Source: Conexibacter sp.
GTDB lineage: Bacteria > Actinomycetota > Thermoleophilia > Solirubrobacterales > Solirubrobacteraceae
Direction of reading: 5' to 3'
Length of the DNA stretch: 33,343 bases
Assembly: GCA_025964325.1 (NCBI GenBank)
Contig: JAOPZA010000229.1
Location: 1 to 33,343 of the forward strand
Positions 15,287 through 32,314 of this stretch are shown piece after piece (the stretch's first letter is position 1; each line of letters starts with the position of its first letter). Both the position numbers and the translations under genes were made by a program. The notes beneath the pieces were generated by a model, which searched no databases, was not told where the DNA came from, and saw only the letters and a list, made by a program, of their open reading frames with translations.

Positions 15287-15328
15287 CCGGTCAGTGTGGC
15301 GGATGTCCGCTGCCCCGATTGTGGAGAG

Positions 15329-15343
15329 CACGAATGGTTCGTG
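15329..15343. promoter_or_regulatory. Operator-like palindrome upstream of hyuA
   Basis: CACGAA-tgg-TTCGTG is a perfect 15-bp dyad in the 148-bp divergent region, 43 bp upstream of the pucR-like start and 91 bp upstream of hyuA. It is the only clear palindrome there and is a candidate binding site for the PucR protein. Confidence 0.45.
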
Positions 15344-15434
15344 TGCATCACCACGGCGCTCCGGATCAGAATGGGCGCCAGCGTCGCAGCGGGCGGTCGA
15401 GCCACCTCCCGCGGGATCGAAAGGATCGCAGCGG

Positions 15435-17486
15435 ATGAAAGCCGTGTCAGGAACCGTGGTCGCCGTCGATGTCGGAGGGACGTTCACCGACGTGTGCGTC
15501 CTGCACCACGAGAGCGGCGTGCTCGAGGTCGCGAAGGTCGCCTCGACGCCGGATCCGATCGACGGCGTGCTCGCCGCCGTCGCCCAGACGGGCGTCGAGC
15601 TGCGCGATGTCGCGCTCTTCTGTCACGGCACGACCGTCGCGACGAACGCGCTGATCACGCGCCGGCTGCCGTCGGCGGCGATGGTGACGACGCGCGGGTT
15701 CCGCGACGTGATCGAGATCCGTCGCGGCACCCGCGACGATCTGTGGGATGCCTACGCCGACAACGCCGCGCCGTACATCCGGCGGCGCGATCGGCTCGAG
15801 GTGCCCGAGCGCATCGACTACGCCGGCACGGTGGTCGAGGAGCTCGACGAGGACGCCGCGCGCGACGTCGCGCGGGTGCTGGGACGGCGGGGCGTCGAGG
15901 CGGTCGCCGTCTGCTTCGTCAACGCCTACGCGAACCCGGCGCACGAGCAGCGGATGGAGGAGATCCTGCGCGAGGCGCTGCCGGAGGTGGCGATCTCGAC
16001 CTCCAGCGGCGTGTTGCCCGAGCTGTTCGAGCACGAGCGCTTCAGCACGACCGTCGCGAACGCCGTCCTCTCGCCACTCGTCTCGGGCTACGTCTCCGAG
16101 CTCGAGCGCCGTCTGCAGGCCGACGGCTACCAGGGGGACCTGCTGATCCTGCACTCGGGCGGCGGCGTGATGACGCCCGAGGCGGTCGACAAGCTCGCCG
16201 TGCGGCTGGCGGCGTCGGGCATCGCCGCCGGCGCGGTCGCGTGCCGCTACACGGCCGAGCAGTGCGGCTACCCGAACGCGATCGGGCTCGACATGGGTGG
16301 CACGAGCACCGACATCTCGCTCGTCCACGACGGCGAGCTGCGCATGACGAACGAGTGGTACGTCGAGTACGGCTATCCGATCTGCTTCCCCTCGATCGAG
16401 GTGCTCACGATCGGCGCCGGCGGCGGCTCGCTCGCGACGATCGACGGCGCCGGCTCGTTGCGCAACGGACCGCAGTCGGCCGGCTCGACGCCGGGGCCCG
16501 CGTGCTACGGCGCCGGTGGGACGCAGCCGACCAACACCGACGCGAACCTCGTGCTCGGGCGGCTGGGCCGGCAGCTCGCCGGCGGCGGCATGACGCTGGA
16601 GCCGAGCGCGGCCGAACGGGCGATCCGCGACGAGGTCGCGGAGCCGCTCGGCCTCTCCGTCCCCGCGGCGGCGAGCGCGATCATCAAGGTCGCGAACGCG
16701 AACATGGCCGACGCAGTGCGACTGATCTCGCTCCAGCGGGGCTATGACCCGCGCGAGTTCGTGCTCGTCGTCTTCGGCGGCGCAGGCAGCTTGCACGGCG
16801 TCGAGCTCGCGCGCGAGCTGTCGATCCCGACCGTCGTCGTGCCGCCGCGACCGGGCGCCTGGTCGGCGCTGGGGTGCCTGATGGTCGACATTCGCCACGA
16901 CCTCTCGACGATGTTCCTGACGCGCGCCGACGCCGCCGATCCGGAGGCGCTGGAGGCCGCCTTCGCGGAGCTGGAGCGCGAGGGCCGGCGCCTGCTGGCG
17001 GCCGAGGGCGTGACCGACGATCGCGTCGTGCTCGAGCGCTCGATCGCGATGCGCTACCTCGGCCAGTGGCGTTCGATGCAGGTGACCGTCGAGGCGCCCG
17101 TCGCGGACCTCTCCGCCGCGACCGAGGCGTTCCACCGCGAGCACGAGCGCGAGTTCTCCTACCGACGCGATGACGCCCCGGTCGAGCTCTACCGGCTGCA
17201 GCTGCGGGCGATCGGTCGGACGGACGACGTGCGCATGCCGCGGCAGGAGCCCCAGCCCGGCGCCGCGCTGCCGCGACCGACCGCGACGCGCCCCGTCTGG
17301 TTCGACGGCTACGACGCGCCGCAGGAGACGCCGGTGTACGAGCGCGCAGCACTGCCGGCGGGCGTGCAGTTCGTCGGACCCGCGGTGATCGATCAGCTCG
17401 ACACGACGACGCTCGTCCCGCCCGGGGTGCTGGTCGAGACCGACGAGTGGCTGAACCTGCGGATGCACATCACCGAGGGGAGCTGA
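15435..17486 (+). CDS. Hydantoinase/oxoprolinase family subunit A (HyuA-like)
   Basis: A 683-residue member of the ATP-dependent hydantoinase/5-oxoprolinase/acetone-carboxylase superfamily. Two actin-like ATPase motifs are seen: VAVDVGGTFTDVCVL near the start, and IGLDMGGTSTDISLV around residue 285. CHGTTVATNAL, GAGGGSLATID and the GPACYGAGG loop, all typical of HyuA, are present. The subunit uses ATP to activate a lactam, cyclic imide or ketone by phosphorylation, working with HyuB. The ATG has AAAGGA about 9 nt upstream. The hyuB start follows the stop by one base. The PucR neighbour hints at a nitrogenous cyclic substrate such as a hydantoin or an oxoproline, but acetophenone/acetone-type carboxylation is not excluded. 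Confidence 0.88.
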   Translation: MKAVSGTVVAVDVGGTFTDVCVLHHESGVLEVAKVASTPDPIDGVLAAVAQTGVELRDVALFCHGTTVATNALITRRLPSAAMVTTRGFRDVIEIRRGTRDDLWDAYADNAAPYIRRRDRLEVPERIDYAGTVVEELDEDAARDVARVLGRRGVEAVAVCFVNAYANPAHEQRMEEILREALPEVAISTSSGVLPELFEHERFSTTVANAVLSPLVSGYVSELERRLQADGYQGDLLILHSGGGVMTPEAVDKLAVRLAASGIAAGAVACRYTAEQCGYPNAIGLDMGGTSTDISLVHDGELRMTNEWYVEYGYPICFPSIEVLTIGAGGGSLATIDGAGSLRNGPQSAGSTPGPACYGAGGTQPTNTDANLVLGRLGRQLAGGGMTLEPSAAERAIRDEVAEPLGLSVPAAASAIIKVANANMADAVRLISLQRGYDPREFVLVVFGGAGSLHGVELARELSIPTVVVPPRPGAWSALGCLMVDIRHDLSTMFLTRADAADPEALEAAFAELEREGRRLLAAEGVTDDRVVLERSIAMRYLGQWRSMQVTVEAPVADLSAATEAFHREHEREFSYRRDDAPVELYRLQLRAIGRTDDVRMPRQEPQPGAALPRPTATRPVWFDGYDAPQETPVYERAALPAGVQFVGPAVIDQLDTTTLVPPGVLVETDEWLNLRMHITEGS

Positions 17487-17487
17487 G

Positions 17488-19461
17488 ATGTCCGCGCACC
17501 AGACCGACTCGACACTCGATCCGGTCACGTTCGAGGTCCTGAAGAACTCCTTCGTGACGCTCGTCGACGAGATGGCCGAGCAGATCCTCCGCACGTGCCA
17601 CTCGTTCGTGATCTTCGCCCGCGACTTCTCGTGCGCCCTCTGCGACGCCGAGGGAAACACGATCATGCAGGGCAGCCAGGACATCGCCGTGCACGTCGGC
17701 ACGCTGCACCTGAAGGCGAAGGCGGTGCTCGAGGACTTCGCCGGCGACATCAACGAGGGGGACGTCTTCGCGGTCAACGACCCCTACCGTGGCGGCACGC
17801 ACTTCAGCGACGTCTCGATCGTGCGGCCGATCTTCTCCGACGGCACGCTGATCGCGCTCGCGCAGGCGAACGGTCACTGGGCGGACATGGGCGGCAGCAC
17901 GCCCGGCAGCTTCGACGTCTCGGCGACGGACCACTTCGGCGAGGGCGTGCGGATCCCGCCGGTGCGGATCGTCGACCGCGGCGTCGTGCGCGAGGACGTG
18001 ATCGCGCTCGTCGCCAGCAACACGCGCGCCCCTGGCGCGATCGTCGGCGACTGCCACGCGCAGGTCGAGGCGACGCGGATCGCCGAGCAGGAGGTCTTCC
18101 GGCTGATCGACAAGTACGGGAACGCCACCGTCGTGACGGCGTTCGGGGAGGTGCAGGACTACGTCGAGCGGCTGACGCGCGCTCGCATCGCGGGCCTGCC
18201 CGACGGCGTGTGGGAGACGGAGGACCACATCGACGCCGACCCGGCGGCGCCGGAGGGCCTCGTCGCGGTGCGCGTGAGGATGACGATCGCCGGCGACGAG
18301 ATCCACTACGACCTGTCCGGCTCGGACCCCGCGATCGCGAGCTTCCTCAACGCCGGCGCGGGCGTCGCCTTCTCCGGCGCGATCGCGTCCGCGAAGACGT
18401 TCATGCCGGACATCCCGCTGAACTCCGGCTTCTACCGTGCGATCCACGTGGACGTCGGGCCACAGGGCACCGTCGTCAACGCCGGCTGGCCGATCGCCGT
18501 GACCGGTTGCGTCTCGGGCGCCTACGAGAAGATCATGAACGCCGGCTTCGAGCTGTGGTCGCAGCTGATGCCCGAGCGCGCGATGGCGTGCTGCTTCAAC
18601 CTCGAGTATCTGCTCGTGGGCGGCCGCGACGCGCGCAGCGACGAGCGCCCGTTCTTCATGTGGTACGACTGGATGGCCGGCGGCTGGGGCGGCCGCAACG
18701 GCAAGGACGGCCAGAACGCGACCTCGCCGGTCTTCGGCGTGGGACTCGCGGTTCAGCCGCTCGAGGGCCAGGAGCGCCTCACCCCCGTGCTCACGACGAG
18801 CCACGAGATCCTCCCCGACTCGGGCGGTCCCGGTCGCCACCGCGGCGGCTGCGGCGTGCGCAAGGGCGGCACCGTCACGGCGGTCGAGGACACCGTCATG
18901 TCGTACTGCTGCGACCGCTCGCGCGCCGTCGCCTGGGGGATCATGGGCGGGCTGCCGTCGCTGCCGCACGGCGTCTGGCTCAACCGCGGGCGCGAAGGCG
19001 AGCGGTTCCTGGGCGCGAACTTCTCCAACGTCGCGGTCGTGCCGGGAGACAGCTTCGAGCGCCCGTCGGCCGGAGGAGGAGGCTTCGGCGATCCGCTCGA
19101 GCGCGACCCGGCCGAGGTGCTGGAGGACGTCGCCGACGGCTACGTGACGGTCCGCCGCGCCGAGCGCGACTACGGCGTGATCATCCAGGAGGTCGACGTC
19201 GAGCTGTGCGAGTACCGCGTCGAGGAGGAGGCGACCGAGCGTGCTCGCGCGCAGCAGCGCGCGGAGCGAGGCGGCTGGCTGGCCGAGGATCCCGAGCAGG
19301 TCGCCCGCCGCTTCCGCAACGGCGAGCTGGACACCTTCGACCTGGTCCGCCACTACGGCGTGATCCTCGACTGGGGCACCGGCGAGCTGCTCCCTCGCAC
19401 GACCGTCCAGTATCGGGCGCTCCTGCGACGACGCAGCGCCGCGCACTGGCGCGAGGCGTGA
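17488..19461 (+). CDS. Hydantoinase B/oxoprolinase family subunit (HyuB-like)
   Basis: A 657-residue partner subunit of the preceding gene. Family marks include DPVTFEVLKNSFVTLVDEMAEQ at the N-terminus, NDPYRGGTHFSDVSIV, NAGAGVAFSGAI and the C-terminal GPGRHRGGCGVRKGG block; GGGGFGDPLERDP follows. With HyuA it should perform ring opening, or the transfer step, on the phosphorylated substrate. It starts one base after the hyuA stop, with GGGGAG just upstream. The protein is about 80-100 residues longer than minimal HyuB: the tail carries a charged helix and then RHYGVILDWGTGELLPRT. No carbamoylase or racemase is adjacent, so a complete hydantoin pathway is not visible here. Confidence 0.88.
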   Translation: MSAHQTDSTLDPVTFEVLKNSFVTLVDEMAEQILRTCHSFVIFARDFSCALCDAEGNTIMQGSQDIAVHVGTLHLKAKAVLEDFAGDINEGDVFAVNDPYRGGTHFSDVSIVRPIFSDGTLIALAQANGHWADMGGSTPGSFDVSATDHFGEGVRIPPVRIVDRGVVREDVIALVASNTRAPGAIVGDCHAQVEATRIAEQEVFRLIDKYGNATVVTAFGEVQDYVERLTRARIAGLPDGVWETEDHIDADPAAPEGLVAVRVRMTIAGDEIHYDLSGSDPAIASFLNAGAGVAFSGAIASAKTFMPDIPLNSGFYRAIHVDVGPQGTVVNAGWPIAVTGCVSGAYEKIMNAGFELWSQLMPERAMACCFNLEYLLVGGRDARSDERPFFMWYDWMAGGWGGRNGKDGQNATSPVFGVGLAVQPLEGQERLTPVLTTSHEILPDSGGPGRHRGGCGVRKGGTVTAVEDTVMSYCCDRSRAVAWGIMGGLPSLPHGVWLNRGREGERFLGANFSNVAVVPGDSFERPSAGGGGFGDPLERDPAEVLEDVADGYVTVRRAERDYGVIIQEVDVELCEYRVEEEATERARAQQRAERGGWLAEDPEQVARRFRNGELDTFDLVRHYGVILDWGTGELLPRTTVQYRALLRRRSAAHWREA

Positions 19462-20178: not shown

Positions 20179-20841
20179 CTACAGCAGCAGGCCACGACGG
20201 AGCGCGTGCACGACCGCAGACGTGCGGTCGCTCACGCCGAACTTCTCGTAGACGTGCTGGAGGTGCGTCCGCACCGTCGTCCTGCTGAGGTGGAGCCGCT
20301 CGCCGATCTCGATCGCGGATAGGCCATCCGCAACCAGACGCAGCACCTCGAGCTCGCGCGAGCTGAGCACGGGGCGGTCGTCCGCCGGTCGTCGCATCCG
20401 GATCTCCTGCAGCAGCCCCGCCTGGATCGCCGATGCGATGACCGTCTTCCCCCGCGCGACCGCGAGCACCGAGTCGACGATCTCCGTTCCGGTGCTGCTC
20501 TTCGGCAGGAACGCATCCGCCCCGACGGAGAGCGCGTGGTAGATCGTCGCGCTGTCCTCCCGCGCGGAGATCAGCACGACCCGCGTCGCGAGACCCTGTC
20601 GCTTCGCCGCGTCGAGAACGCCGAAGCCGTCGACGCCCGGGAGCGAGACATCCAGCACGATCACGTCGGGCCGCAGCTCGCGGATTCGGTCGAGCGCCTC
20701 GCGGCCGTCCGCGGCCTCGCCCAGCACCTCGATCTCCGCCTGTGCCTTCAGCAGATTGACGATGCCGTCGCGGTACACCGGATGATCGTCGGCGACGACC
20801 ACTCCGACACGACCACGCACTCGCGGCGCCGGCTCGCTCAT
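20179..20841 (-). CDS. NarL/LuxR-type response regulator
   Basis: A 220-residue two-domain regulator. The receiver domain (about residues 11-130) has acidic Asp18/Asp19, the phosphoacceptor Asp64 in IVLDVSLPG, and Lys114 in FLPKSS. The C-terminal LuxR helix-turn-helix starts at LSSRELEVLRLVADGLS and includes the recognition helix LSRTTVRTHLQHVYEKFGV. Phosphorylation should allow DNA binding as a dimer. Its ATG overlaps the stop of the hybrid kinase gene (ATGA), so the pair is co-translated and it is the likely phosphate target. The regulated genes are unknown; the sigma-factor gene and the aromatic-catabolism operon are the nearest candidates. Confidence 0.93.
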   Translation of the reverse strand: MSEPAPRVRGRVGVVVADDHPVYRDGIVNLLKAQAEIEVLGEAADGREALDRIRELRPDVIVLDVSLPGVDGFGVLDAAKRQGLATRVVLISAREDSATIYHALSVGADAFLPKSSTGTEIVDSVLAVARGKTVIASAIQAGLLQEIRMRRPADDRPVLSSRELEVLRLVADGLSAIEIGERLHLSRTTVRTHLQHVYEKFGVSDRTSAVVHALRRGLLL

Positions 20842-22814
20842 GGGCTTGTCGCGCCTTGCGGCCGACCGGCCAACGACGCGCGCGCGAGCTCGACCAGCTG
20901 CGCCAGTCTGACCGGCTTGGTCACGTAGCCGGCGGCGCCCTCGGCGAGCACTCTGCGCTGCTTGCGCGGACTCGCGTCCGCCGACATCACGAGGACCGGG
21001 ATGTCGCGCGTCCGACCGTCTGCCTTCAGCTCCGCCAGCACCTTCTCGCCGGGAACGTCCGGGAGGTTCAGGTCGAGCAGGATGAGGTCGGGCGCCAGCT
21101 CGACCGCCATGCTGATGCCGAGGCGTCCGTGCCCGGCGTGCAGCAGCGTCACGTCGCCGGCTGCGATCAGCGCCTCCTCGACCAGCTCGACGTTCGCCGC
21201 GTGGTCGTCGACGTAGAGGATCGTGCCGTGCAACGGCAGCTCGTCCTCGATCGCCGGCGCGCGTGATCCGAAGACGATCTCGCGGGCGTTCGAGGGAGCG
21301 TCGACGCGGTTCAGCTCCACGAAGATCGTCGTGCCGCGCCCGACCGCGGCGGACTCGACGCCCACCCTCCCGCCCATCGCCTCGATCAGCGTCTTCGACA
21401 CCGCGAGGCCGAGACCGGCGCCCGCCGGGTGCAACCCCTCGCGGTCGAACCGTTCGAACGGCAGGAAGATCCGTGCGCGGTCACGCGCGCGGATCCCCGA
21501 ACCCGTGTCCGCCACCAGCACGCGCAGCGTGTCGCCCGTCTGCCGGAACGAGACGCGCACCTCTCCCCCGGGACGGTTGTAGTGGACGCCGTTCGAGATC
21601 AGGTTGACCAGCACCTGGACCAGGCGTCGCGCGTCGCCGGCGACGAACTCGTTGATGCCGCCGTGCAGGTCGACCGCCAGCTCGATGCCCTGCGCGTTCG
21701 CGAGCGGCGTCATGATGTCGGCGGCCTTGACGACGGGCTCCGACGCATGCACGGGGACGATCGAGATGCGGTCCGCCCCCGTCTCGATGCTCGACATGTC
21801 GAGCAGGTCCTCGATCAGCGCGAGCAGGTGGACGCCGGCGCTGGACATCCGCGCCACCGCCTTGGAGGCCTTCGCGGGCAGCTCCTGCGACTCGAGCAGC
21901 TCGGTGTACCCCAAGATCGAGTGCAGCGGCGTACGGAGCTCGTGGCTGACGCGTGAGAGGAACCGCGACTTCGCGCGGTTGGCACGCTCCGCCTCCGCTC
22001 TTGCCTCGCGGCTGGCGGTCTCCGCTCGCTTGAGGGCGGTGATGTCCGTCGCGACGCCGCAGAGCGCATAGGCCTCGCCGTCCGTGTTCAGCAACGGGAA
22101 CTTGAGCGAGTAGTACATGTGCAGCTCGCCGTCGTGCAGCGACCACTCCTGGAACTCGAGCGGTCTGCCCGCCGCCAGTGCCGCGGCATCGTGCTGGCGG
22201 AACTGCTGCGCTTCCTCGCGACCGGCGAAGTCGGGATCGGTGCTGCCCATGACGCCCTTGTAGTGCGCGCGTGCATGGCGGTTCGCGAGCATGTAGCGGC
22301 CGTCGAGATCCTTGATGAAGACCAGCGCGGGCACGCCGTCGATGATGTCCTGCAGCAGCTTCCTGCTGTCTGCCACCTCGGGGTGCGCGCCCCGATCGCA
22401 TTCCGGACCGTCATCGCCGTCGGACCGCTCGAGGACGACGAGCGCGTGACCGGCGGCGCGGCCCCCGCTCGCGCAGCCGGTCAGGCGCGCGTGGATCACC
22501 GCCGCCTCGCCGGCGCCGCACCGGCATCGCACGGCGAGCGGCTCGGCCGCCGACGGACCGGCCCGCGCGCGGGCGACGGCGTCCTCGAAGACCGCGGCGT
22601 CCGACGAGGCGACGAGCTCCGCCAGCCCGGCGCACGCGAGCTCGTCTCGGGGGCGTCGGAGCGCCTCGCAGAACGCGTCGTTGAACGCGACGAGCGGACA
22701 CCCGTCCGTCGTCTCGACGATCGCGTGAGGCGTCGGCGACGCCAGGAACGCGGCCTGCAGCAGCTCGGCGGAGACCGAGGCCGTGCGACCGGCCTGCCGA
22801 CTCGACGGACTCAT
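20838..22814 (-). CDS. Soluble hybrid sensor histidine kinase (PAS-PAS-HisKA-HATPase-REC)
   Basis: A 658-residue protein with no membrane segment, hence a cytoplasmic sensor. A first, divergent PAS-like region covers about residues 15-130, and a second, clear PAS/PAC spans about 148-265 (LVFIKDLDGRYMLANRHA, then LCGVATDITALKRAE). HisKA has the phosphorylated His291 in SRVSHELRTPL. The HATPase N box is LVNLISNGVHYN, with G boxes DTGSGI and GAGLGL. A C-terminal receiver (about 530-645) has Asp581 in LLDLNLPDVPG and Lys633. The ATG at 22814 has no ribosome-binding site but sits right behind a good promoter, so the transcript is probably leaderless. The open frame continues further upstream through the monooxygenase gene, but only as a shadow. 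Confidence 0.9.
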   Translation of the reverse strand: MSPSSRQAGRTASVSAELLQAAFLASPTPHAIVETTDGCPLVAFNDAFCEALRRPRDELACAGLAELVASSDAAVFEDAVARARAGPSAAEPLAVRCRCGAGEAAVIHARLTGCASGGRAAGHALVVLERSDGDDGPECDRGAHPEVADSRKLLQDIIDGVPALVFIKDLDGRYMLANRHARAHYKGVMGSTDPDFAGREEAQQFRQHDAAALAAGRPLEFQEWSLHDGELHMYYSLKFPLLNTDGEAYALCGVATDITALKRAETASREARAEAERANRAKSRFLSRVSHELRTPLHSILGYTELLESQELPAKASKAVARMSSAGVHLLALIEDLLDMSSIETGADRISIVPVHASEPVVKAADIMTPLANAQGIELAVDLHGGINEFVAGDARRLVQVLVNLISNGVHYNRPGGEVRVSFRQTGDTLRVLVADTGSGIRARDRARIFLPFERFDREGLHPAGAGLGLAVSKTLIEAMGGRVGVESAAVGRGTTIFVELNRVDAPSNAREIVFGSRAPAIEDELPLHGTILYVDDHAANVELVEEALIAAGDVTLLHAGHGRLGISMAVELAPDLILLDLNLPDVPGEKVLAELKADGRTRDIPVLVMSADASPRKQRRVLAEGAAGYVTKPVRLAQLVELARASLAGRPQGATSP

Positions 22815-22897: not shown

Positions 22898-24358
22898 TCA
22901 CTCGAGCCCGATGATGCCGGCGACGCGCCGCTTGAAGCGCTGCCGATCCGGCTCGTGCTCGAGGTAGAGCAGCTGGCGCAGCAGGTAGGCGGGCAGCCCG
23001 TTGACGTTCTCGAACAGTGCGCTGCGGCCCGCGTGCGCCGACGTCGTCAGATCCCACACGAAGTTCAGCAGCAGGTTCTTCTGGCGCGCCGTGACGCCGT
23101 TGTGCTCGAGGTAGTACTCGAGGTCCTGCGCGAGCGTCGGGTTGTCGAAGTCGCGCTCGGAGAAGCGCATCACGAGCCCCTGTCCGCACAGCTCCTGGAG
23201 TGCGTGGACGATCTCGGGGTAGGTGTCGAGCGCATACGCGCGCATCGCTCGCACCGTCACGACGTCCGGCAGCAGGACGTCGCCCTCCGTCGGCGAGGCG
23301 AGCTCCTCGGCGGCCAGCGCGCCGGCCCGGAGAATCGCCGCGTACTGGCTGATCTTGCCGACCGCATCGCGAATCGCGGGGATCGTGGTGAGCCCCAGGA
23401 CCTCGGCCAGCGTCTGGGCGACCCCGGCGAAGATCTCCGCCTTGACGCAGAGCCGCGTCAGGCCGCACCAATGCTCGCCTCGCGATACCTGGGCGAAGAG
23501 GGCCGGATCGTGCAGCTGCGGGGCGCGCAGGCTCCAGACCCGATCCCAGGGAACGAGCACGTCGTGGAAGACCACGAACGCGTCGGACTCCTCTCCGCGG
23601 CTGGCAAGCGGATGGTCGTACGAGGCGCCCTCCCCGGCGGCGGTCGTCTCGCGGCAGATCAGACGGAGCCCCGGCGCGTTGACCGGTATCGCCGCCCAGA
23701 AGCTCTCGTCCGGTCGCACGTGCGGGAAGTAGATCCCGCCCACGAGCAGCTCGTTCGCCTGTGGCGCATAGGAGCCGACCGCGCGCGCCCCCCGCACGAC
23801 GATCCCCTCGCGCGTCTCCTTCACCACCTGCAGCACCCCGGCCCGGTCCTCGCCGGCCATCGCGGAACGGGCGCGCCCTCCCTGAGGCTCGATGATCACG
23901 CCCGCGAGGTGGATGTTGCCCTCCTGTGCCTCCGTGGTGTAGCGGGCGAGGTTCTCGGCCAGCTCCGAGCTGTGCTTGCGGAACGTCGGCAGCACCGCGA
24001 GCAGGCCGATCTGGGTCCAGGCGATGATGTCCGGCTGGCGTCCCATCAGGCCGCACGTGTGCCACGCGACGTGCTCGGTGAACGCGCGCTTGCGGGCCAG
24101 GTCGGCTTTCGTACGGGGCACGAGCCAGCAAGTCGAGACCTGTCTGCCGTCCTCCCGCGCGTACGTCAGGACCTCCGCGGTCTCCGGCGCACGCTGCTGG
24201 TCGTAGAGGTCGGCGTAGAGGTCGATCGCGTCCGCGGTCGCATGATGCGTCGTGACGTCGGCGACGCGCTCGCCGCGATACCAGACCTCGCGCTCGTCGC
24301 GCAGCGATCCCCGGTACTCCTCTCCGGTCTTCAGGAAGCCCTCGACGGTGGCGGTCAC
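22898..24358 (-). CDS. HpaB-family flavin-dependent monooxygenase (first of two)
   Basis: A 486-residue protein of the FADH2-using 4-hydroxyphenylacetate 3-monooxygenase family: VWYRGERVADVTTHHA at the start, DHPLASRGEE and VFHDVLVPWDRVWSL in the middle, helical C-terminus. It needs reduced flavin from a separate reductase, which is not in this window. Compared with T. thermophilus HpaB as I remember it, Arg100 is kept (Arg107), but Tyr104 is Ile111 and His142 is Gly153. These are the residues that hold the phenol hydroxyl, so the substrate should differ. The start is GTG at 24358, overlapping the upstream stop (GTGA) and preceded by GGGAGA. It is the last gene of the operon with the Amt-like protein and the molybdenum hydroxylase. 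Confidence 0.88.
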   Translation of the reverse strand: MTATVEGFLKTGEEYRGSLRDEREVWYRGERVADVTTHHATADAIDLYADLYDQQRAPETAEVLTYAREDGRQVSTCWLVPRTKADLARKRAFTEHVAWHTCGLMGRQPDIIAWTQIGLLAVLPTFRKHSSELAENLARYTTEAQEGNIHLAGVIIEPQGGRARSAMAGEDRAGVLQVVKETREGIVVRGARAVGSYAPQANELLVGGIYFPHVRPDESFWAAIPVNAPGLRLICRETTAAGEGASYDHPLASRGEESDAFVVFHDVLVPWDRVWSLRAPQLHDPALFAQVSRGEHWCGLTRLCVKAEIFAGVAQTLAEVLGLTTIPAIRDAVGKISQYAAILRAGALAAEELASPTEGDVLLPDVVTVRAMRAYALDTYPEIVHALQELCGQGLVMRFSERDFDNPTLAQDLEYYLEHNGVTARQKNLLLNFVWDLTTSAHAGRSALFENVNGLPAYLLRQLLYLEHEPDRQRFKRRVAGIIGLE

Positions 24359-25794
24359 CGGGTCTCTCCCGGAATCGACGAGACGGTCCCTGCCCCGCCC
24401 AGGACGGCGTCTCCGTTCCCGGCGGAGGGAGCGACGGGAACGCCGGGCTCGGGCACGCTCGGGAGGTTCCAGTAGGCGTGGTCGAGGCCCTCCAGCTCGG
24501 CGGTCTCGGAGACGCGGAGCGAGCCGGTGCGCGCGAACACGAAGCACAGGATCAACGCCGGGATCGCTGCCAGCGCGATCGCCGAGCCGATGCCGACGAG
24601 CTGCCACCAGGGCGTGATGTGCGCGTGCTGGAACGCGTACTTGCCGCTCGTGATGCCGGGATACCCGCCGGTCTTCACGTTCCAGGCGACGAAGCCGGAC
24701 ACGAGCGCGCCGTAGATGCCGGGTCCGAGCGTGAGCGGAGCGACCTTGAGGTCGTCGAGCCCGCGTCGCTGGAGCAGCTTGTAGACGCCGTACACCGTGA
24801 ACGGCGCGAAGAAGGTGACGATCAGCGTCTTCCACGGCGCGGCGACGTCGAACAGCGTGCCGCCCGCGATGTAGCCCGCGAGCGGCCCCAGGAGAACCCA
24901 GAAGGGGTTCTTCGTGCGGTAGGAGAGCACCGCGCCACCGGCGATCCCGGACACGAACGTCACGAACACGTTCACGAACACGAGGCCGATGCCGCTCGTC
25001 GTGCCGGAGATGCCGACGAACCCGAAGGTGCCGGGGAAGAGGAATCCGCAGCCGAGCATCGCGGCGGGGATGCCGATCATCATCACCAGCACCCCGACCG
25101 CGACCCCGGTGAGGTTCTGGGGCACCGGACCGACCGTGCGCGGATGCGCCACGAACGTGCCGAGCCGTGGTCGCAGTCTCCACGACATGATGAGCGACCA
25201 CGTGCCGATGAAGATGTAGAGCGAGAAGACGCCGCTGAAGTCGTGGACGCCCAGATTCGACAGCGGGCCGACCGGGCCCCACGTCAGATAGGTGCCGATC
25301 GGGATCAGCAGCCCGCCCACGATCGCGGACATGATCACGAGCGGGAGCGGCTTCAGTCGCTCGACGCCGCTGCTGGCGATGAAGATCCCGGCGATCATCA
25401 CGTAGCCGATGAAGAACGCCATGAAGACCTGGTAGACGTCGAGGTTCGGCGACGCCGCCGGGTCGACGGCCTGCGGGAGATGCGTCAGCAGCGAACCGCC
25501 GATCCACCACCCGTCGATCGCCGCCTTGAGGGGCGAGGGAACGCCGAACGCGGCGTTGAACTGCCAGTTCCAGATCGCGTAGCCGATGCCGAGGAACGCG
25601 ATCCCCGCCACCGCGGCGGCGACGAACTTCTGCACGTAGCTGTCGAGCGCGTTCTTGGCTCGAACGAGGCCGCCGTCGATCAACGCGAGTCCGAGCATGA
25701 TGACGATCAGCGAGATCCCGGGGAGGGCGTAGAAGACATCCTGAAGGAGGACGTCCGGCCCGATCTGCTTCGTGAATACTGCCGCCAGGTCCAT
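24355..25794 (-). CDS. Divergent Amt/ammonium-transporter-fold membrane protein
   Basis: A 479-residue protein with about eleven membrane helices. ALIDGGLVRAKNALDSYVQKFV (near 38-58) matches the Amt signature in which GGLVRxKN follows TM1; VHDFSGVFSLYIF (183-195) matches the LDFAGGxVVHI segment, and DDLKVAPLTLG (347-357) the second pore motif. By this alignment the Asp equivalent to AmtB Asp160 is kept (Asp185), but the two pore histidines, His168 and His318, become Tyr193 and Leu356. An ordinary NH3/NH4+ mechanism is therefore doubtful. The ATG has AGAGGG 7 nt upstream. It lies between the molybdenum-hydroxylase large subunit (43 bp) and the monooxygenase (4-bp overlap). No GlnK is near. It may move the pathway substrate or released ammonia. 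Confidence 0.82.
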   Translation of the reverse strand: MDLAAVFTKQIGPDVLLQDVFYALPGISLIVIMLGLALIDGGLVRAKNALDSYVQKFVAAAVAGIAFLGIGYAIWNWQFNAAFGVPSPLKAAIDGWWIGGSLLTHLPQAVDPAASPNLDVYQVFMAFFIGYVMIAGIFIASSGVERLKPLPLVIMSAIVGGLLIPIGTYLTWGPVGPLSNLGVHDFSGVFSLYIFIGTWSLIMSWRLRPRLGTFVAHPRTVGPVPQNLTGVAVGVLVMMIGIPAAMLGCGFLFPGTFGFVGISGTTSGIGLVFVNVFVTFVSGIAGGAVLSYRTKNPFWVLLGPLAGYIAGGTLFDVAAPWKTLIVTFFAPFTVYGVYKLLQRRGLDDLKVAPLTLGPGIYGALVSGFVAWNVKTGGYPGITSGKYAFQHAHITPWWQLVGIGSAIALAAIPALILCFVFARTGSLRVSETAELEGLDHAYWNLPSVPEPGVPVAPSAGNGDAVLGGAGTVSSIPGETR

Positions 25795-25837: not shown

Positions 25838-28216
25838 CTACGGCTTCGGCGTGCGCTGGGCGGGGCCCCGCGCCACCAGCGCCAGCACGTCCGAGGGCCG
25901 CACCGGTGTGTGGTTGATCTCGGGCTCGAACGGAGCGAGGGCGTCGGTGATCGCGTTCACGACCGCCGCCGGTGCGGCGATCGTGCCGCCCTCGCCCATG
26001 CCCTTCATCCCGCCCTCGGTCGTCGGGGACGGCGTCGTCAGGTGCGAGACCTCGATCGAGGGGATCTCCATCGAGGACGGGTAGAGGAAGTCCGCCAGGG
26101 TGCCGGACAGCAGCTGCCCGGCGTCGTCGTAGACCATCTCCTCGTAGAGCGCGCCGCCGATCCCCTGCGCGATCGCGCCGTGGACCTGCCCGTCGACGAT
26201 CATCGGGTTCAGCATCGTGCCGCAGTCCTCGACCGCGACGACCCGCTGCAGCTCGACCGCGCCGGTCTCGATGTCGACCTCGACGATCACCACGACGACG
26301 CCGTTGCTGTAGGTCTCCGGCGCGTCGTAGTAGCGCGTCGCGCTGAGCGTGTGCTCCTGGCCCTCCGGCCGCAGCGGCCCGCCGAAGTAGCCGATGCCGG
26401 CGAGCGTCGCGATCGGCAGCGTCTTCTCCGGCACGCCGGTCACCGTCGCGTGCCCGTCGTAGAGCTCGATGTCGTCGGGGCTCACCTCGAGCATCTGCGC
26501 GGCGATGCGCAGGAGCTTGTCCCGCACGTCGGTCGCGGCCAGGATGATCGAGCCGCCGGCGACCGTCGCCGTCCGGCTCGCGTAGGTGCCAGCGCCCCAG
26601 GTCGCCTTGGAGGTGTCGCCGTCGACCACGCGGACGGACTCCAGGCGGACCCCGAGGCGATCGGCGGCGACCTGCGCCAGGCTCGTGTGATGGCCCTGTC
26701 CGTGGCTGAACGTGCCCGTCGTCACCGTCACGGTCCCGTCCGGCTCCATCGTGACGCTCGCCGTGTCGTAGAACTCCGCCGGGAATCCCAGCGCTCTCGC
26801 GCCCTCGGAGCCCCACGTGCCCGCCTCGACGAACGGGCTGAAGCCGATGCCGATGTAGCGTCCCTGCTCGCGGGCGGCGAGCTGCTCGCGGCGGAAGCCC
26901 GCGTAGTCGACCAGCTCCTGCGCGAGCTCGATCGACTCGATGTAGCTGCCGCCGTCGTAGTGCATGTCGTTCGCGGTGACGTACGGCTCCGACGAGATGC
27001 AGTTCTTCACGCGCAACGCGACCGGGTCGATCTTCAGCTTGCGCGCGATGTCCTCGATCAGCGTCTCGCGCGCGAGGTGGCCCGGGTGCATCCCCGGCCC
27101 GCGATACGCCGTCGTCTGGCACTTGTTGGTGAGGGCCGAGTCGACCGTGTATCCGAGCTCGCGCACGTCGTAGAGGCTGGGCAGCAGGCTCGCGGCCGGG
27201 AGCGGATCGATCAGGCAGCTCCAGGGGAACCCGGAGTAGGCGCCGCCGTCGCCGATGTAGCGCCCGCGGAACGCCTGGAAGCGCCCGTCGTCGCTGACGG
27301 CGATCTCGACGTCCATGACGATCTCCTTCGCGTGCCCGCTCGCGGCGAGGTGCTCGATGCGATCCTCGACCCACTTCACGGGGCGGCCGACGCGCCGGGC
27401 GACGAGCGGGATGATCGCCTCTTCGACGAAGACGTGGGCCTTCAGGCCGAAGCCGCCCCCGACGTCCGGAGCGATGACGGTGATGTCGCCCTCGCTCAAG
27501 CCCAGGTGCGGTGCGATCAGCGTGCGCAGGAAGTGCGGCAGCTGCGTCGAGGACCACATCGTCAGCTGCTCGGTCCCGAGGTCGAAGTCGGCCACGACGC
27601 CGCGGGTCTCGAGCGGCGCGGCATGCGACCGGCCGCAGTGGAACCGCTTGCCGAAGACGTGATCGGCCGCCGCGAACGCGGCGTCGACGCCGTCGGTGGC
27701 GAACTCGATGTGGGCGACGTTGTTGTTCGGCACGTCGTCGTGGAGCTGCGGCGCGTCGCCCGAGATCGCCTCCTCCGCGTCGACGACGGCGGGCAGCAGC
27801 TCCCATTCGATCTCGACGAGGTCGCAGCCGTCCTCCGCGAGGTAGCGGGACTCGGCGATCACGATCGCGACGGCTTCGCCGACGTGGCGGACCTTGTCGG
27901 TCGCCAGCAGCGGCTTGGTGACCGACAGGACGTCGGGCCGCTGCAGCTCCGTCACGAACGCGGAGCCGAGCTCGGCGAGCTCCTCGCCGGTGAGGACCGC
28001 GACGACGCCCTCGAGCGCCTTGGCCGCGCTCACGTCGACGCGCTTGATCAGGGCATGCGCGTGCGGGCTGCGCACGAACGCTGCGTGCGCCATCGCGGGC
28101 AGCACGACGTCGTCGAGGTATCTGCCGCGGCCGAGGAGGTACTTCTTGTCCTCGACGCGCAGGACGCGCGCACCGACGTACTGCGGGGACCGGACTGTCA
28201 TCGGCTCAGCCGCCAT
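25838..28216 (-). CDS. Molybdenum hydroxylase large (Mo-cofactor) subunit, XDH/CoxL family
   Basis: A 792-residue molybdopterin-cytosine-dinucleotide-type subunit. The N-terminal a/b-hammerhead domain contains GRYLDDVVLPAMAHAAFVRSPHAHA, the cofactor-binding GGGFGLK is at 253-259, the active-site loop AYRGPGM is at 370-376, and the catalytic Glu is probably Glu742 in KGMGEGG. CO dehydrogenase would need a Cys-containing AYxCSFR loop, so this is not CoxL in the strict sense. It adds a water-derived hydroxyl to a ring carbon, usually next to a ring nitrogen. AGGAGG lies 5 nt upstream of the ATG. It follows the 2Fe-2S subunit by 60 bp. The substrate is inferred only from context as an N-heteroaromatic. 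Confidence 0.92.
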   Translation of the reverse strand: MAAEPMTVRSPQYVGARVLRVEDKKYLLGRGRYLDDVVLPAMAHAAFVRSPHAHALIKRVDVSAAKALEGVVAVLTGEELAELGSAFVTELQRPDVLSVTKPLLATDKVRHVGEAVAIVIAESRYLAEDGCDLVEIEWELLPAVVDAEEAISGDAPQLHDDVPNNNVAHIEFATDGVDAAFAAADHVFGKRFHCGRSHAAPLETRGVVADFDLGTEQLTMWSSTQLPHFLRTLIAPHLGLSEGDITVIAPDVGGGFGLKAHVFVEEAIIPLVARRVGRPVKWVEDRIEHLAASGHAKEIVMDVEIAVSDDGRFQAFRGRYIGDGGAYSGFPWSCLIDPLPAASLLPSLYDVRELGYTVDSALTNKCQTTAYRGPGMHPGHLARETLIEDIARKLKIDPVALRVKNCISSEPYVTANDMHYDGGSYIESIELAQELVDYAGFRREQLAAREQGRYIGIGFSPFVEAGTWGSEGARALGFPAEFYDTASVTMEPDGTVTVTTGTFSHGQGHHTSLAQVAADRLGVRLESVRVVDGDTSKATWGAGTYASRTATVAGGSIILAATDVRDKLLRIAAQMLEVSPDDIELYDGHATVTGVPEKTLPIATLAGIGYFGGPLRPEGQEHTLSATRYYDAPETYSNGVVVVIVEVDIETGAVELQRVVAVEDCGTMLNPMIVDGQVHGAIAQGIGGALYEEMVYDDAGQLLSGTLADFLYPSSMEIPSIEVSHLTTPSPTTEGGMKGMGEGGTIAAPAAVVNAITDALAPFEPEINHTPVRPSDVLALVARGPAQRTPKP

Positions 28217-28276: not shown

Positions 28277-28822
28277 TCACGACGCGGCAGCGGGCGTCGT
28301 CGCGACGCTCGCCTCCGCCCCTCCGCCGGCCTGCGCCGCCGCCTGCACCGCTTCCACGATCCCCACATATCCGGTGCAGCGACAGATGTTGCCCGAGAGG
28401 TGCTCGCGGATCTCCTCGGACGACGGTGCCGGGTTCTCCTCCAGCAGGACCGCGGCGCTCAGCAGCATCCCCGGGGTGCAGAACCCGCACTGGAGTCCGT
28501 GCTTCTCGTTGAACGCCTGCTGGAGCGGGTGCAGCTCGCCGTTCGCAAGGCCCTCCACCGTCGTCACGTCGGCGCCCTGCGCCTGCACGGCCAGCATCAG
28601 GCACGAGCGCACGGGCGCACCGTCGACGAGCACGGTGCACGCTCCGCAGACGCCGTGCTCACAGCCGAGGTGGGTGCCGGTGAGGACGAGCTCCTGGCGC
28701 AGGAAGTCGGCGAGCAGCATGCGCGGCTCGGCTCGTCCGCGGCGGGACGCGCCGTTGACCTGGAGTCGAACCTCGATCTCACCGTCGACGATCGCTCCGT
28801 CGTGATTATCGTCTCGCTTCAT
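28277..28822 (-). CDS. Molybdenum hydroxylase small subunit, two [2Fe-2S] clusters
   Basis: A 181-residue iron-sulfur subunit. The N-terminal plant-type ferredoxin domain binds one cluster through Cys54, Cys59, Cys62 and Cys74 (GCEHGVCGAC, then RSC). The C-terminal helical domain binds the second through Cys112, Cys115, Cys147 and Cys149 (QCGFC, ICRC). It passes electrons from the molybdenum centre to FAD. I start it at the ATG at 28822, with AAGGGAG at 11 nt; a GTG at 28834 is the alternative. It overlaps the end of the FAD-subunit gene by 17 bp. The last 20 residues are an Ala-rich tail beyond the usual family length. Confidence 0.93.
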   Translation of the reverse strand: MKRDDNHDGAIVDGEIEVRLQVNGASRRGRAEPRMLLADFLRQELVLTGTHLGCEHGVCGACTVLVDGAPVRSCLMLAVQAQGADVTTVEGLANGELHPLQQAFNEKHGLQCGFCTPGMLLSAAVLLEENPAPSSEEIREHLSGNICRCTGYVGIVEAVQAAAQAGGGAEASVATTPAAAS

Positions 28823-29690
28823 CGGCGCCGTCACTCCCTTCGATCGCGGCCTTCAACGCGCGCTCGACCAGCACCGCGATGACCTGCTTGCGGTAGCTGC
28901 CCGGTGCATGGATGTCCGACGGCGGGTCGAACTGCGCCGCTGCCCGACGGCCCGCCTCCGCGAACGTGCGCGGATCGTTGGCATCCTCCTGCTGGAGGAA
29001 GTCCTGAGCCGCCGTGGCCAGCAGCGGCCGGTCCGCGACGCCGCTGCATGCGATGCGCGCCGAGCGAACCGCGCCGTCCACGTACTCGAACGAGACGGCC
29101 ACGCCGGCGAGCGCGAAGTCGCCGTGCCGACGCGCGATCTCCACGAAGCCCGAGCGGGCGGCCGCCGGGGGCCTCGGCACTTCGACTGCCGTCAGCAGCT
29201 CGTCGGCCGAGACCGCCGTCGCGAAGAGGCCTTCGAAGAAGTCCTCCGCCGCCACCGTACGCTGGCCGCCGGGGCCGCTGACCGCCATTCGCGCATCGAG
29301 CGCCAACGCGATCGCCGGCAGTTCCGCGGCGGGATCCGCATGCGCGATGCTGCCGCCGACCGTGCCGCGGGAGCGGATCCCGACGTGACCGACGTAGCGC
29401 AGGCCCGCAGCGATGATCGGCGCGATCCGCGCCGCGTCGGCTGATCGCTCGATCGTCCGCTGACGCACGACCGACCCGATCCGAAGCGCTCCGTTGACCT
29501 CGATGTCGCCGAGGCCCGCGACCGCGTTGATGTCGACGACGAGCTCCGGACGAGCCAGCCGCGCGTTCATCAGCGGCATGAGACTCTGGCCTCCGGCGAG
29601 GACCTTCGCATCATCCCCGTGGGCGGCCAACAGGCCGATGACCTCCTCGACCGAGGTCGGCCTTGCGTAGTTGAAACGTGATGGCTTCAC
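28806..29690 (-). CDS. Molybdenum hydroxylase medium (FAD) subunit
   Basis: A 294-residue FAD-binding subunit of the CoxM/XdhB type. The two flavin motifs are AGGQSLMPLMNARL (32-45) and TVGGSIAHADPAAELP (110-125), and a CO_deh_flav_C domain follows (FVEIARRHGDFALAGVAV). It takes electrons from the iron-sulfur clusters to an external acceptor. The start is GTG at 29690, chosen because homologues begin MKPxxFxYxxP exactly here; no ribosome-binding site is visible, and the longer open frame would run across the divergent promoter. It is the first gene of the minus-strand operon: medium, small and large subunits, Amt-like protein, monooxygenase. No XdhC/CoxF-like maturation genes are seen in the window. 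Confidence 0.9.
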   Translation of the reverse strand: MKPSRFNYARPTSVEEVIGLLAAHGDDAKVLAGGQSLMPLMNARLARPELVVDINAVAGLGDIEVNGALRIGSVVRQRTIERSADAARIAPIIAAGLRYVGHVGIRSRGTVGGSIAHADPAAELPAIALALDARMAVSGPGGQRTVAAEDFFEGLFATAVSADELLTAVEVPRPPAAARSGFVEIARRHGDFALAGVAVSFEYVDGAVRSARIACSGVADRPLLATAAQDFLQQEDANDPRTFAEAGRRAAAQFDPPSDIHAPGSYRKQVIAVLVERALKAAIEGSDGADEARR

Positions 29691-29725
29691 GAGGAAGAGC
29701 AAAGCCGACCGCGTCAGCGCCGAAC

Positions 29726-29743
29726 ATCCTGCACCGAGAGGAT
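29726..29743. promoter_or_regulatory. Dyad ATCCT-N8-AGGAT, copy 1
   Basis: A perfect 5-bp inverted repeat, ATCCT-gcaccgag-AGGAT, 36 bp upstream of the FAD-subunit start. The same arms with the same 8-bp spacer occur again at 29842-29859, while the spacers differ in sequence. This is a candidate operator for the divergent catabolic operons. Confidence 0.45.
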
Positions 29744-29841
29744 CCGGCAGATGACCCAGCGAGAGGAGCGCGGCTTGACCGACGACGGCGAGCGCCGGCC
29801 GGCCGCAGACCGTCCGATCGCCCTCGGCGACCATCACCTCG

Positions 29842-29859
29842 ATCCTCCCGCAGCAGGAT
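29842..29859. promoter_or_regulatory. Dyad ATCCT-N8-AGGAT, copy 2
   Basis: ATCCT-cccgcagc-AGGAT repeats the arms and spacing of the site at 29726-29743; the centres are 116 bp apart, close to eleven helical turns. It ends 34 bp before the hydrolase start at 29894, on the promoter side of the plus-strand operon. Its presence argues against the alternative hydrolase start at 29858. Confidence 0.45.
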
Positions 29860-29893
29860 GGGCGACGCCTCGGAAGATCGCGACGATCCCCGC

Positions 29894-30772
29894 ATGGCTA
29901 CGCCACAGGAGGTCCCGAGGAGCGCCCGCACCGCGCGGAAGGTCGTAGGACGCAGCCGATTCGTCGGCCGCGGCGACGACGTCGTCCTGCACTGCCTCGA
30001 GTACGGCGAGCCCGCGACGGAGGCGGACAGCGGCCCGACGCTGCTGATCCTGCCGGGGATCACCTGCCCCGCGGCGACCTGGGAGTTCGTCGCCGAGCCG
30101 CTCGCACGCGACGTTCCCGTCGTGATGTGGGACGCGCGCGGACGCGGTCTCTCGGACAACCCGGTCGACGGGTTCTCGATGGAGGACTACGCCTCCGACG
30201 TGCGGCTCGTGCTGGACGAGCTCGGGCTCCGCCGCCCCGCGATCCTCGGGCACTCGATGGGCGCCCGCATCGCGGCGTACTTCGCCGCTCGCCATCCCGA
30301 TCGCGTCGGCCCGCTGATCCTCGCCGATCCACCGATGATGGGGCCCGACCGGCCGTACACGACGCCGATCTCAGCCTATGTCGAGGAGATCCACCGAGCG
30401 CAGAGCGGTGCGCTCAGCCTCGACGAGCTGCGCGACGCCTGGCCCTCGTGGGACGAGGAGCGCATCCTCGATCGCCACGAGTGGCTTCGCACCTGCGACG
30501 CGCACGCGGTCAGCGAGAGCTACGCCAGCCTGGGAGCCGACGACCTGCTCGCCTCCTGGCGGCGGCTTGCCGCGCCGCTGCTGCTCGTCCGCGGCGGCGA
30601 CAGCCCCGCCCTGACGGCCGCGGACGCAGCGGCTCTGCGACGGGCGAACCGCGCGGCCGAGCTCGCGTCGGTGCCGGGCACCGGCCACATGATCCCGTTC
30701 GAGGACCTCGACGGCTTCCTGCGCGTCGTCCGGCGCTTCCTGAGAGCTGCACCCGATGAAAGGACACGCTGA
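29894..30772 (+). CDS. Alpha/beta hydrolase resembling N-formylmaleamate deformylase (NicD)
   Basis: A 292-residue hydrolase. It matches NicD of nicotinate degradation over most of its length: LPGITCPAATWEFVAE, DARGRGLSDNP, GHSMGAR, LADPPMMGP, the EWLRTC segment and GTGHMIPFEDLDGF. The predicted triad is Ser121, Asp145 and His265. The spacing (+24 and +144) is the same as in the Ser101/Asp125/His245 triad I recall for P. putida NicD, including the unusual acid position. NicD removes formate from N-formylmaleamate after pyridine-ring opening, so an N-formyl or related amide intermediate is likely here. The start is uncertain (29894 or 29858; neither has a ribosome-binding site). A monooxygenase gene follows after 3 bp. 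Confidence 0.82.
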   Translation: MATPQEVPRSARTARKVVGRSRFVGRGDDVVLHCLEYGEPATEADSGPTLLILPGITCPAATWEFVAEPLARDVPVVMWDARGRGLSDNPVDGFSMEDYASDVRLVLDELGLRRPAILGHSMGARIAAYFAARHPDRVGPLILADPPMMGPDRPYTTPISAYVEEIHRAQSGALSLDELRDAWPSWDEERILDRHEWLRTCDAHAVSESYASLGADDLLASWRRLAAPLLLVRGGDSPALTAADAAALRRANRAAELASVPGTGHMIPFEDLDGFLRVVRRFLRAAPDERTR

Positions 30773-30775: not shown

Positions 30776-32314
30776 ATGGCGATCAACACCACCAAGGCAC
30801 TGCTCCGCACCGGCGATGACTTCAAGCAGTCGCTGCGCGACGGACGGGTCGTGTGGTACGCGGGCGAGCGCATCGAGGACGTGACGACGCATCCCGCCAC
30901 CGCCGGCGGCATCGATCGCATCGCCGAGCTCTTCGATCTGCAGCACGATCCCGCCCACCGCGACGTGATGACCTACGAGCGCGAGGACGGGCAGCGCGTG
31001 ACGCGCGCATGGCAGCTGCCACGCTCGCACGAGGACCTCGACGCGAAGCGCAGGATGGGCGAGCTGTCATCGATCAAGACGCTCGGGATGTTCGGACGCC
31101 AGTTCGACAACATCGCGTGGACGATGCTCGGCCTCGGCGCGTACGAGCACCTGTTCACGGCGGACAACCCCGAGCTCGCGGGCAACATCGGGCGCTACAT
31201 CCGCTACGCGCAGGACAACAACCTCATCATCGGGGGCATCGTCGCCGATCCGCAGGGCGCCCGCGCGAAGGAGAAGTGGTCGATCGGCGAGCGCGTCCCG
31301 CTCGAGCATCACGGTGAGGTCGACCGGCTTCCGCCGCTGCTGCGCGTCGTGGAGCAGCGCAGTGACGGGATCGTCGTCGCCGGCGCCAAGATCGTCGGCA
31401 CGGTGATCCCGCAGGCCAACGAGCTGATCATCCTGACCCAGCCGGGGGTCTCGCCGGAGGAGAGCTTCTGGTGCGCGATCCCCGCCGCCTCCGAGGGACT
31501 GCACATCGTGCTGCGCCAGTCGCTGGCACCCGGCGCGAGCGGCCACGCGCATCCGCTCGCCTCGCGCGGCGAGGAGCAGGACTGCCTGATCATCCTCGAC
31601 AACGTCTTCGTCCCGATGGACCGCGTCTTCTCGCTCGGGAACCCGGCGCTGCCGATGGAGTACGGCGACATCGGCGCCGGCGAGCATTGGAGCACGCTGA
31701 TCCGGATGTGCGTCAAGGCCGAGCTGCTCGTCGCGCTCGCGCAGCTCGTGATCGACTCCGTCGGCACGGCGCGCGTCGCGAAGGTGCGCGAGCAGGTCGC
31801 CGACCTCGTCCTCTACGCCCAGGTGCAGCGCTCGCTCGTCCAGTCCGCGCAGGACTACTTCATCACGACCGAGTCCGGCGTCGCCTGGCCGCAGGTCGAT
31901 TACGTCACGGCCGGACGCGTCTACGGCGTCGAGAACTACGGCAAGATGATCGGCGTGCTGCGGGAGCTCTCCGGCCAGGGGCCGCTGATGCTCTTCTCCA
32001 AAGCCGACTTCACCCATCCGCAGCTCGGACCGCTGCTGTCACAGGTGACGGAGGGGTTCGACATGGTCTCCGAGGCCAAGAACACGCTGATGGGACTCGT
32101 GTGGGACATCACCTCCGACAGCTTCGGGATGCGCGTGGACTACTTCGAGCGCCTCAACGGCTACCCGCTGTTCTTCCTGAAGGAGCGGCTCTTCGGCGAG
32201 TACGATCGCGTCGCCAACGTCGAGTTCCTCGCACGCTTCCTCGAGCTCGACGTCGAGCAGCTCGCCAGACCAGCCCGCGTGCTGGCCGCGACCCGCAAGC
32301 CCGCGCTCGGATAG
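30776..32314 (+). CDS. HpaB-family flavin-dependent monooxygenase (second of two)
   Basis: A 512-residue relative of 4-hydroxyphenylacetate 3-monooxygenase: VVWYAGERIEDVTTHPAT near residue 25, LFDLQHDPAHRDVMTYE, HPLASRGEEQDCLIILDNVFVPMDRVFSLG in the middle, and a helical C-terminus. It should use FADH2 supplied by a reductase that is not in this window. In the HpaB active-site positions Arg108 is kept, whereas the phenol-binding Tyr and His are Asn112 and Gly154. It shares the GRQxDxIAWT motif with its paralogue at 22898-24358, so the two probably act on related ring substrates or at successive steps. The ATG has AAAGGA at 11 nt and sits 3 bp behind the NicD-like gene; the acyl-CoA synthetase starts 4 bp after its stop. 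Confidence 0.88.
   Translation: MAINTTKALLRTGDDFKQSLRDGRVVWYAGERIEDVTTHPATAGGIDRIAELFDLQHDPAHRDVMTYEREDGQRVTRAWQLPRSHEDLDAKRRMGELSSIKTLGMFGRQFDNIAWTMLGLGAYEHLFTADNPELAGNIGRYIRYAQDNNLIIGGIVADPQGARAKEKWSIGERVPLEHHGEVDRLPPLLRVVEQRSDGIVVAGAKIVGTVIPQANELIILTQPGVSPEESFWCAIPAASEGLHIVLRQSLAPGASGHAHPLASRGEEQDCLIILDNVFVPMDRVFSLGNPALPMEYGDIGAGEHWSTLIRMCVKAELLVALAQLVIDSVGTARVAKVREQVADLVLYAQVQRSLVQSAQDYFITTESGVAWPQVDYVTAGRVYGVENYGKMIGVLRELSGQGPLMLFSKADFTHPQLGPLLSQVTEGFDMVSEAKNTLMGLVWDITSDSFGMRVDYFERLNGYPLFFLKERLFGEYDRVANVEFLARFLELDVEQLARPARVLAATRKPALG

Follow-up and report, generated by a model that had tools for sequence, protein, structure and literature searches.

An Amt-fold protein subfamily without the twin pore histidines, encoded beside catabolic genes and proposed to take up organic nitrogen bases

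The window, by which is meant the whole 33,343-nucleotide stretch of Conexibacter sp. DNA that was analysed, carries a gene for an unusual relative of the ammonium transporters, for which we coin the name AmtY (Tyr-type, twin-His-less Amt-fold transporter). The gene and its flanking features are as follows.

20179-20841, minus strand: NarL-type response regulator (NCBIfam response-regulator matches), adjoining the kinase
20838-22421, minus strand: PAS hybrid histidine kinase (PAS_4, HisKA, HATPase_c, Response_reg)
22898-24358, minus strand: oxygenase component of an HpaB-type two-component flavin monooxygenase (HpaB_N 7.6e-73, HpaB 5.1e-35; PDB matches to aromatic/phenol monooxygenases)
24355-25794, minus strand: AmtY (PF00909, pore residues, AF2 model with pLDDT 92, structural match to AmtB)
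25838-28216, minus strand: molybdenum hydroxylase large subunit (MoCoBD_1/2; closest solved relative quinoline 2-oxidoreductase, 1t3q, E 1.6e-197)
28277-28834, minus strand: molybdenum hydroxylase [2Fe-2S] subunit (Fer2_2 6.6e-34, Fer2)
28806-29837, minus strand: molybdenum hydroxylase FAD subunit (FAD_binding_5 9.6e-43, CO_deh_flav_C; true start probably near 29693)
29678-30772, plus strand: alpha/beta hydrolase resembling N-formylmaleamate deformylase (PDB 4l0c, E 2.5e-41; true start probably near 29980)
30776-32314, plus strand: second HpaB-type monooxygenase oxygenase component (HpaB_N 3.4e-70)
32319-33343, plus strand: AMP-binding gene of the acyl-CoA synthetase type (PF00501 1.6e-59), truncated by the contig end

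The minus-strand genes run in the order molybdenum hydroxylase FAD, [2Fe-2S] and large subunits, amtY, and HpaB-type monooxygenase. The large-subunit gene ends 43 bp upstream of the amtY start codon, and the GTG start of the monooxygenase gene overlaps the amtY stop by 4 bp (GTGA, 24358-24355), so that the earlier note's account of a transporter gene following a molybdenum hydroxylase and overlapping a monooxygenase gene held in both respects, as did its statement that GlnK is absent, no glnK gene having been found in the window by tblastn. A CO dehydrogenase identity for the large subunit was considered and rejected because quinoline 2-oxidoreductase scores higher. Divergent from this operon lies the deformylase-like hydrolase gene, which recurs beside NicX in related loci and is the only candidate gene for the maleamate route in the window, the NicX copies of this genome being located on other contigs. 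The histidine kinase gene lies 476 bp downstream of the HpaB-type gene, and a shared operon is unproven.

Further from the operon, positions 13721-19461 hold a minus-strand PucR-type regulator adjoining a plus-strand HyuA/HyuB hydantoinase/oxoprolinase pair, possibly a unit for cyclic amide or imide hydrolysis, while positions 8147-13139 hold ribose-type ABC transporter genes, a LacI regulator, and a PfkB kinase, the LacI-PfkB order being also seen near amtY in loci of the nicotinamide type described below. Both blocks (at 8-13 kb and 14-19 kb) were left out of the functional reading, as nothing beyond proximity connects them to it. A 959-aa open reading frame at 5257-8136 on the minus strand has a coding GC pattern and no Pfam match.

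The amtY reading frame is intact, begins with ATG, encodes 479 residues, and shows the GC3 pattern of a real gene. Its product matches PF00909 over the whole domain (residues 29-440, E 2.1e-35, 122.7 bits against a cut-off of 23.2), and scores below the curated cut-offs of the narrower families, reaching 126.5 bits against TIGR00836 (amt; cut-off 343.3) and 54.9 bits against TIGR03644 (marine_trans_1; cut-off 514). Other family members likewise reach only 109-146 bits against TIGR00836. An AF2 model built from 41 sequences has the Amt fold with a mean pLDDT of 92 and a pTM of 0.91, and its best solved matches in Foldseek are Sd-Amt1 (8qpf, 1e-16) and AmtB (4e-15), with VIA Z values of 44.9 to Sd-Amt1 and 43.8 to AmtB (2ns1); it superposes on the latter at 2.4 Å over 384 residues. 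Urea transporters are only distant fold matches (Z about 13). A PDB search with the single AmtY sequence gave no match at E 0.01, and the profile search did find one. Given this confident model and the identity of its best solved matches, the Amt fold, although predicted by a model, is secure. The C-terminal tail is modelled with low confidence, and there is no fused signalling domain.

The pore residues are where AmtY departs from its relatives. When aligned to Escherichia coli AmtB (L081), AmtY retains the outer-site residues D160 (D185) and W148 (W172), while the twin-histidine sites H168 and H318 are occupied by Y193 and T355, the Phe-gate sites F107 and F215 by Y131 and A245, and W212 and S263 by I242 and L302, respectively. 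In an independent alignment of profiles, comparing 41 family members and 17 ordinary Amts, the register was identical at both histidine sites, and misalignment was therefore rejected as an explanation, since two methods agree. The earlier note had described, from the letters alone, an Amt-fold protein with Tyr193 and Leu356 at the two histidine positions and the acidic outer residue kept, and had proposed profile alignment and structure prediction as checks. These confirmed the Amt fold, Tyr193, the retained aspartate, and the lack of histidine at either pore site in the alignments; only the second position was misplaced by one residue, Leu356 being the counterpart of AmtB G319.

The same replacements run through the family. 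Among all Amt proteins gathered, tyrosine occupies site 168 in 52/52 family members, and because the peptide patterns used to find members excluded this position (residue 193 in the window protein), the pattern is not a chance result of the search. Histidine is found at site 318 in none of the 51 members with data, being replaced by Ala (21), Phe (14), Gly (7), Thr (7), Leu (1), or Val (1). D160 is kept in 52/52 and W148 in 51/52, the S263 site is Leu, Ile, Phe, Val, or Ala, and F215 is non-aromatic in 46/52; all 22 ordinary Amts in the alignment, on the other hand, carry His168, His318, and Phe215. A pseudogene reading was rejected, as 52 members across phyla share the invariant Y168 and D160. 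In sequences labelled by a methylated-amine context, positions 162 and 318 are mostly Phe and 165 is Gly or Ala; in those labelled by a pyridine context, 318 is Ala, Gly, or Thr, with Asp frequent at 162 and Phe at 165. This split could reflect two substrate shapes, though it is confounded with phylogeny.

When 61 related genomes were searched at the protein level, AmtY relatives were at least 37% identical over their full length, compared with about 24-32% and far weaker scores for other Amts, and a scan of a genome collection with an 8-row profile yielded 48 loci. In a maximum-likelihood tree the Tyr-type sequences form one clade with 100/100 support on a long branch (2.05), the window protein falling in a starred 12-row set, and their sister group consists of twin-His Amts from methylated-amine clusters. 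Members are rare, occurring in 4 of the 396 genomes from the window's phylum, and the clade reaches the Actinomycetota and the Alpha-, Beta-, and Gammaproteobacteria; a scan of viral contigs found no relatives. The fully supported clade and the family-wide replacement of pore residues mark AmtY as a distinct, unnamed Amt subfamily without the twin histidines.

The genes around members of this subfamily differ from those around ordinary Amts. At least one catabolic marker set was present in 43/57 Tyr-type loci as opposed to 0/22 ordinary Amt loci of related genomes (Fisher p about 2e-10, a guide only, as the counted loci are phylogenetically related). The pyridine set was found in 15/57, the methylated-amine set in 18/57, and two further sets in 5 and 7, while 14/57 had none. 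GlnK is encoded at 21/22 ordinary Amt loci but at only 1/55 Tyr-type loci, and that single copy adjoins a second, ordinary Amt. A catabolic gene is within 600 bp in 13/14 pyridine-type loci, whereas in methylated-amine loci the nearest marker is within that distance in only 4/14 and is often several kb away; for one locus (L059), the methylated-amine label depends on a reductase match that is weak.

In the pyridine context, one recurrent neighbour of amtY in relatives is NicX, which matches a 2,5-dihydroxypyridine dioxygenase (7cn3, E 1.1e-93), and other neighbours match the deformylase 4l0c and hydrolases of the maleamate-amidase type (4l07). All three occur beside AmtY in five loci (L037, L039, L040, L042, and L075), and from these matches it is likely that these loci hold most of the maleamate route (nic/hpo type) of pyridine catabolism. 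In Gordonia desulfuricans NBRC 100010 (L074), the genes for NicX, AmtY, HpaB, and a flavin reductase stand in a row.

The methylated-amine context includes trimethylamine monooxygenase (Tmm; 6kbw, E 4.7e-179), trimethylamine N-oxide (TMAO) demethylase (Tdm; 9q59, E 3.7e-269), dimethylamine monooxygenase, and genes of the N-methylglutamate pathway, and is represented among others by plasmid records with RefSeq annotation and by a Paracoccus copy in a TMA cluster (L084). Several of these clusters encode a second Amt (L056:18542, L063:8090, L068:13573, L071:19961, L079:13623, L080:18610, and L082:22876), which has both histidines wherever it could be aligned (all but L082). The four copies scanned fall below the cut-offs of both TIGR00836 and TIGR03644, and these clustered twin-His Amts may be a separate subfamily of their own, perhaps linked to monomethylamine (MMA).

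A third context, possibly nicotinamide salvage, is less clear than the pyridine and the trimethylamine (TMA)/TMAO/dimethylamine (DMA) contexts, and comprises a nicotinamide-phosphoribosyltransferase-type gene with PRPP synthetase, nucleoside hydrolase, and ribokinase-type genes. In L035, L036, L041, L051, and L053, amtY lies near such a phosphoribosyltransferase gene together with varying sets of PRPP synthetase, GATase1-like, PNPOx-like, nucleoside hydrolase, and ribokinase genes, possibly an unnamed cluster for pyridine-nucleoside salvage or breakdown. In L054, L055, L057, L059, and L066 (Nocardioides, Mycolicibacterium, and Prauserella), amtY is found near DapB-like genes (2,4-diaminopentanoate dehydrogenase C-terminal), accompanied by an FAD-linked oxidase, an AMP ligase, and mostly an Aldedh gene.

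The host genome encodes two ordinary twin-His Amts and two further AmtY proteins, one (on contig C229) divergent from a NicX homologue and the other (on contig C89, L010) following a molybdenum hydroxylase large-subunit gene at a contig end. Four NicX homologues with 54-59% identity are present (contigs C229, C166, C42, and C1), an unusually rich set of pyridine-degradation genes. On C42 (L145) the order is flavin reductase, HpaB, Ami, NicX, MoFAD, MoFeS, and on C89 it is MoL, amtY; the ends of these two contigs possibly belong to one cluster in the order of L075, the joining of the contigs being inferred.

Since most of the pore residues are replaced and the gene travels with catabolic genes, we read AmtY as an uptake system for a catabolic substrate. 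Our preference, held by a modest margin, is for a channel or transporter of small organic nitrogen bases, here a pyridine-type heterocycle, though its substrate class, direction, and energetics are all inferred and no transport assay is available. In AmtB, conduction involves the hydrogen-bonding residues H168, H318, Y32, and S263, and a double-histidine mutant (H168A/H318A) loses transport of both ammonia and methylamine (PMC3647058). By analogy with that mutant, the AmtY pore is likely not a normal ammonium pore, ammonium conduction itself being a matter of inference. The Amt scaffold with its outer-site W148 and D160 is retained, while the hydrogen-bonding pore residues have been exchanged (H168 for Tyr, H318 for Ala, Thr, Gly, or Phe, S263 for Leu) and the inner-gate F215 is mostly lost. 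The substrate may be recognized at a vestibule formed by W172, D185, and Y131 and would then cross a more hydrophobic, less gated pore incapable of the NH4+ deprotonation and proton relay of the twin histidines, with net influx driven by metabolism of the substrate. In the window, the molybdenum hydroxylase and the HpaB-type monooxygenase encoded next to amtY would hydroxylate an imported pyridine-type N-heteroaromatic. For the sister clade, the imported base would be tri- or dimethylamine, oxidized by the neighbouring enzymes. The base may pass in either its neutral or its protonated form.

This reading agrees with the earlier note's suggestion that a branch of the Amts has been repurposed for another small solute, possibly an uncharged heterocycle, an idea well supported by comparative genomics through the twin-His-less clade, the lack of GlnK linkage, and the repeated adjacency to pyridine and trimethylamine/dimethylamine catabolism, though the substrate remains inferred without transport data. 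Several points speak against it. Pyridine and neutral TMA cross membranes unaided, so that it is not evident why a carrier should be needed; methylated-amine clusters include steps releasing MMA or ammonia, where an ammonia role is not excluded; 14/57 loci lack every marker set; and NicX is missing from the window, which leaves the exact ring pathway there to inference. A bolder version, that the whole subfamily gave up ammonium and is now dedicated to importing organic bases whose nitrogen does not form a head group like NH4+ (pyridines, bases of the nicotinamide type, DMA, and TMA) by way of an opened gate and no twin-His relay, is slightly more likely than not.

The likeliest alternative is that AmtY releases the ammonia or ammonium freed from the heterocycle or amine, as the earlier note also suggested, or takes it back up. 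NH3 is eventually liberated in every neighbouring pathway, the fold is that of an Amt, published methylated-amine clusters name the gene amtB or amt (PMC5520151, PMC7574528), and related plasmid records annotate it as an ammonium transporter. This role is nonetheless unlikely and weaker than substrate uptake, because both histidines and S263 are replaced and F215 is mostly lost throughout the family, the double-His AmtB mutant no longer conducts, the host already has two ordinary Amts, the methylated-amine clusters frequently include an ordinary twin-His Amt as well, and AmtY genes are not linked to glnK.

It is also unlikely that AmtY is a channel for a protonated organic cation such as trimethylammonium, or a cation channel of low selectivity. 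In favour of this, twin-His substitutions in AmtB and ScMep2 can open a direct path for K+ and NH4+ (PMC9040831), and the aromatic and acidic residues of the outer site are kept. Most TMA carries a proton at neutral pH. Pyridines, however, are mostly neutral at neutral pH, and yet the family also adjoins pyridine pathways; the AmtY pore is, moreover, more hydrophobic than that of AmtB (S263L, H318A/F), and leaking cations would come at a cost to the cell. A sensor or transceptor that signals the substrate to the nearby histidine kinase and response regulator would be in keeping with the sensor Amt Sd-Amt1 as nearest fold match and with the kinase and regulator genes downstream in the window, but is very unlikely given the absence of a fused signalling domain, the distance of the kinase gene from the HpaB gene, and the lack of a conserved kinase partner at other loci.

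If uptake of organic bases by AmtY is borne out, it would supply the missing entry step of two catabolic routes, those of the pyridines and of the climate-relevant methylated amines, and correct the database label of ammonium transporter, which probably misnames this clade. The prevailing view of Amt/Mep/Rh proteins is that they specialize in ammonium and have a near-invariant twin-His pair and Phe-gate, both described as highly conserved in a 2024 review (PMC10794816), and AmtY would then offer a natural clade of test cases for the roles of these residues. In the open-licence literature that was searched, no report of the missing-histidine pattern or of a link to pyridine catabolism was found, nor anything on point about transport of TMA, DMA, or pyridine by an Amt-type protein, which is weak evidence of absence.

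Compared with the known Amt/Mep transporters (E. coli AmtB, A. fulgidus Amt-1, and Sd-Amt1), AmtY shares the fold, the whole-domain Amt profile, and the equivalents of D160 and W148, but differs in its replaced twin histidines, S263, and usually F215, in its identity of only about 22%, and in its location in catabolic operons without glnK. The clustered twin-His Amts share F104, a histidine at position 159, and gene clusters with AmtY, but unlike AmtY keep both histidines and F215; against TIGR03644 they score 136-184 bits compared with 55-83 bits for AmtY. The amt/amtB genes in TMA/DMA/MMA clusters of Roseobacters and Methylocella have a neighbourhood (Tmm, Tdm, Dmm, Mgs/GmaS) like that of L078 and L082-L084, and are labelled as ammonia or ammonium transporters with no further remark in the relevant passages (PMC5520151, PMC7574528); each could correspond either to AmtY or to its twin-His neighbour. 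Fungal Mep1 and Mep3 and engineered twin-His variants likewise depart from the twin-His motif, but in Mep1/Mep3 only the first histidine is replaced, by Glu, and ammonium is still moved (PMC3647058, PMC9040831), whereas AmtY has lost both, to tyrosine and to a small or hydrophobic residue.
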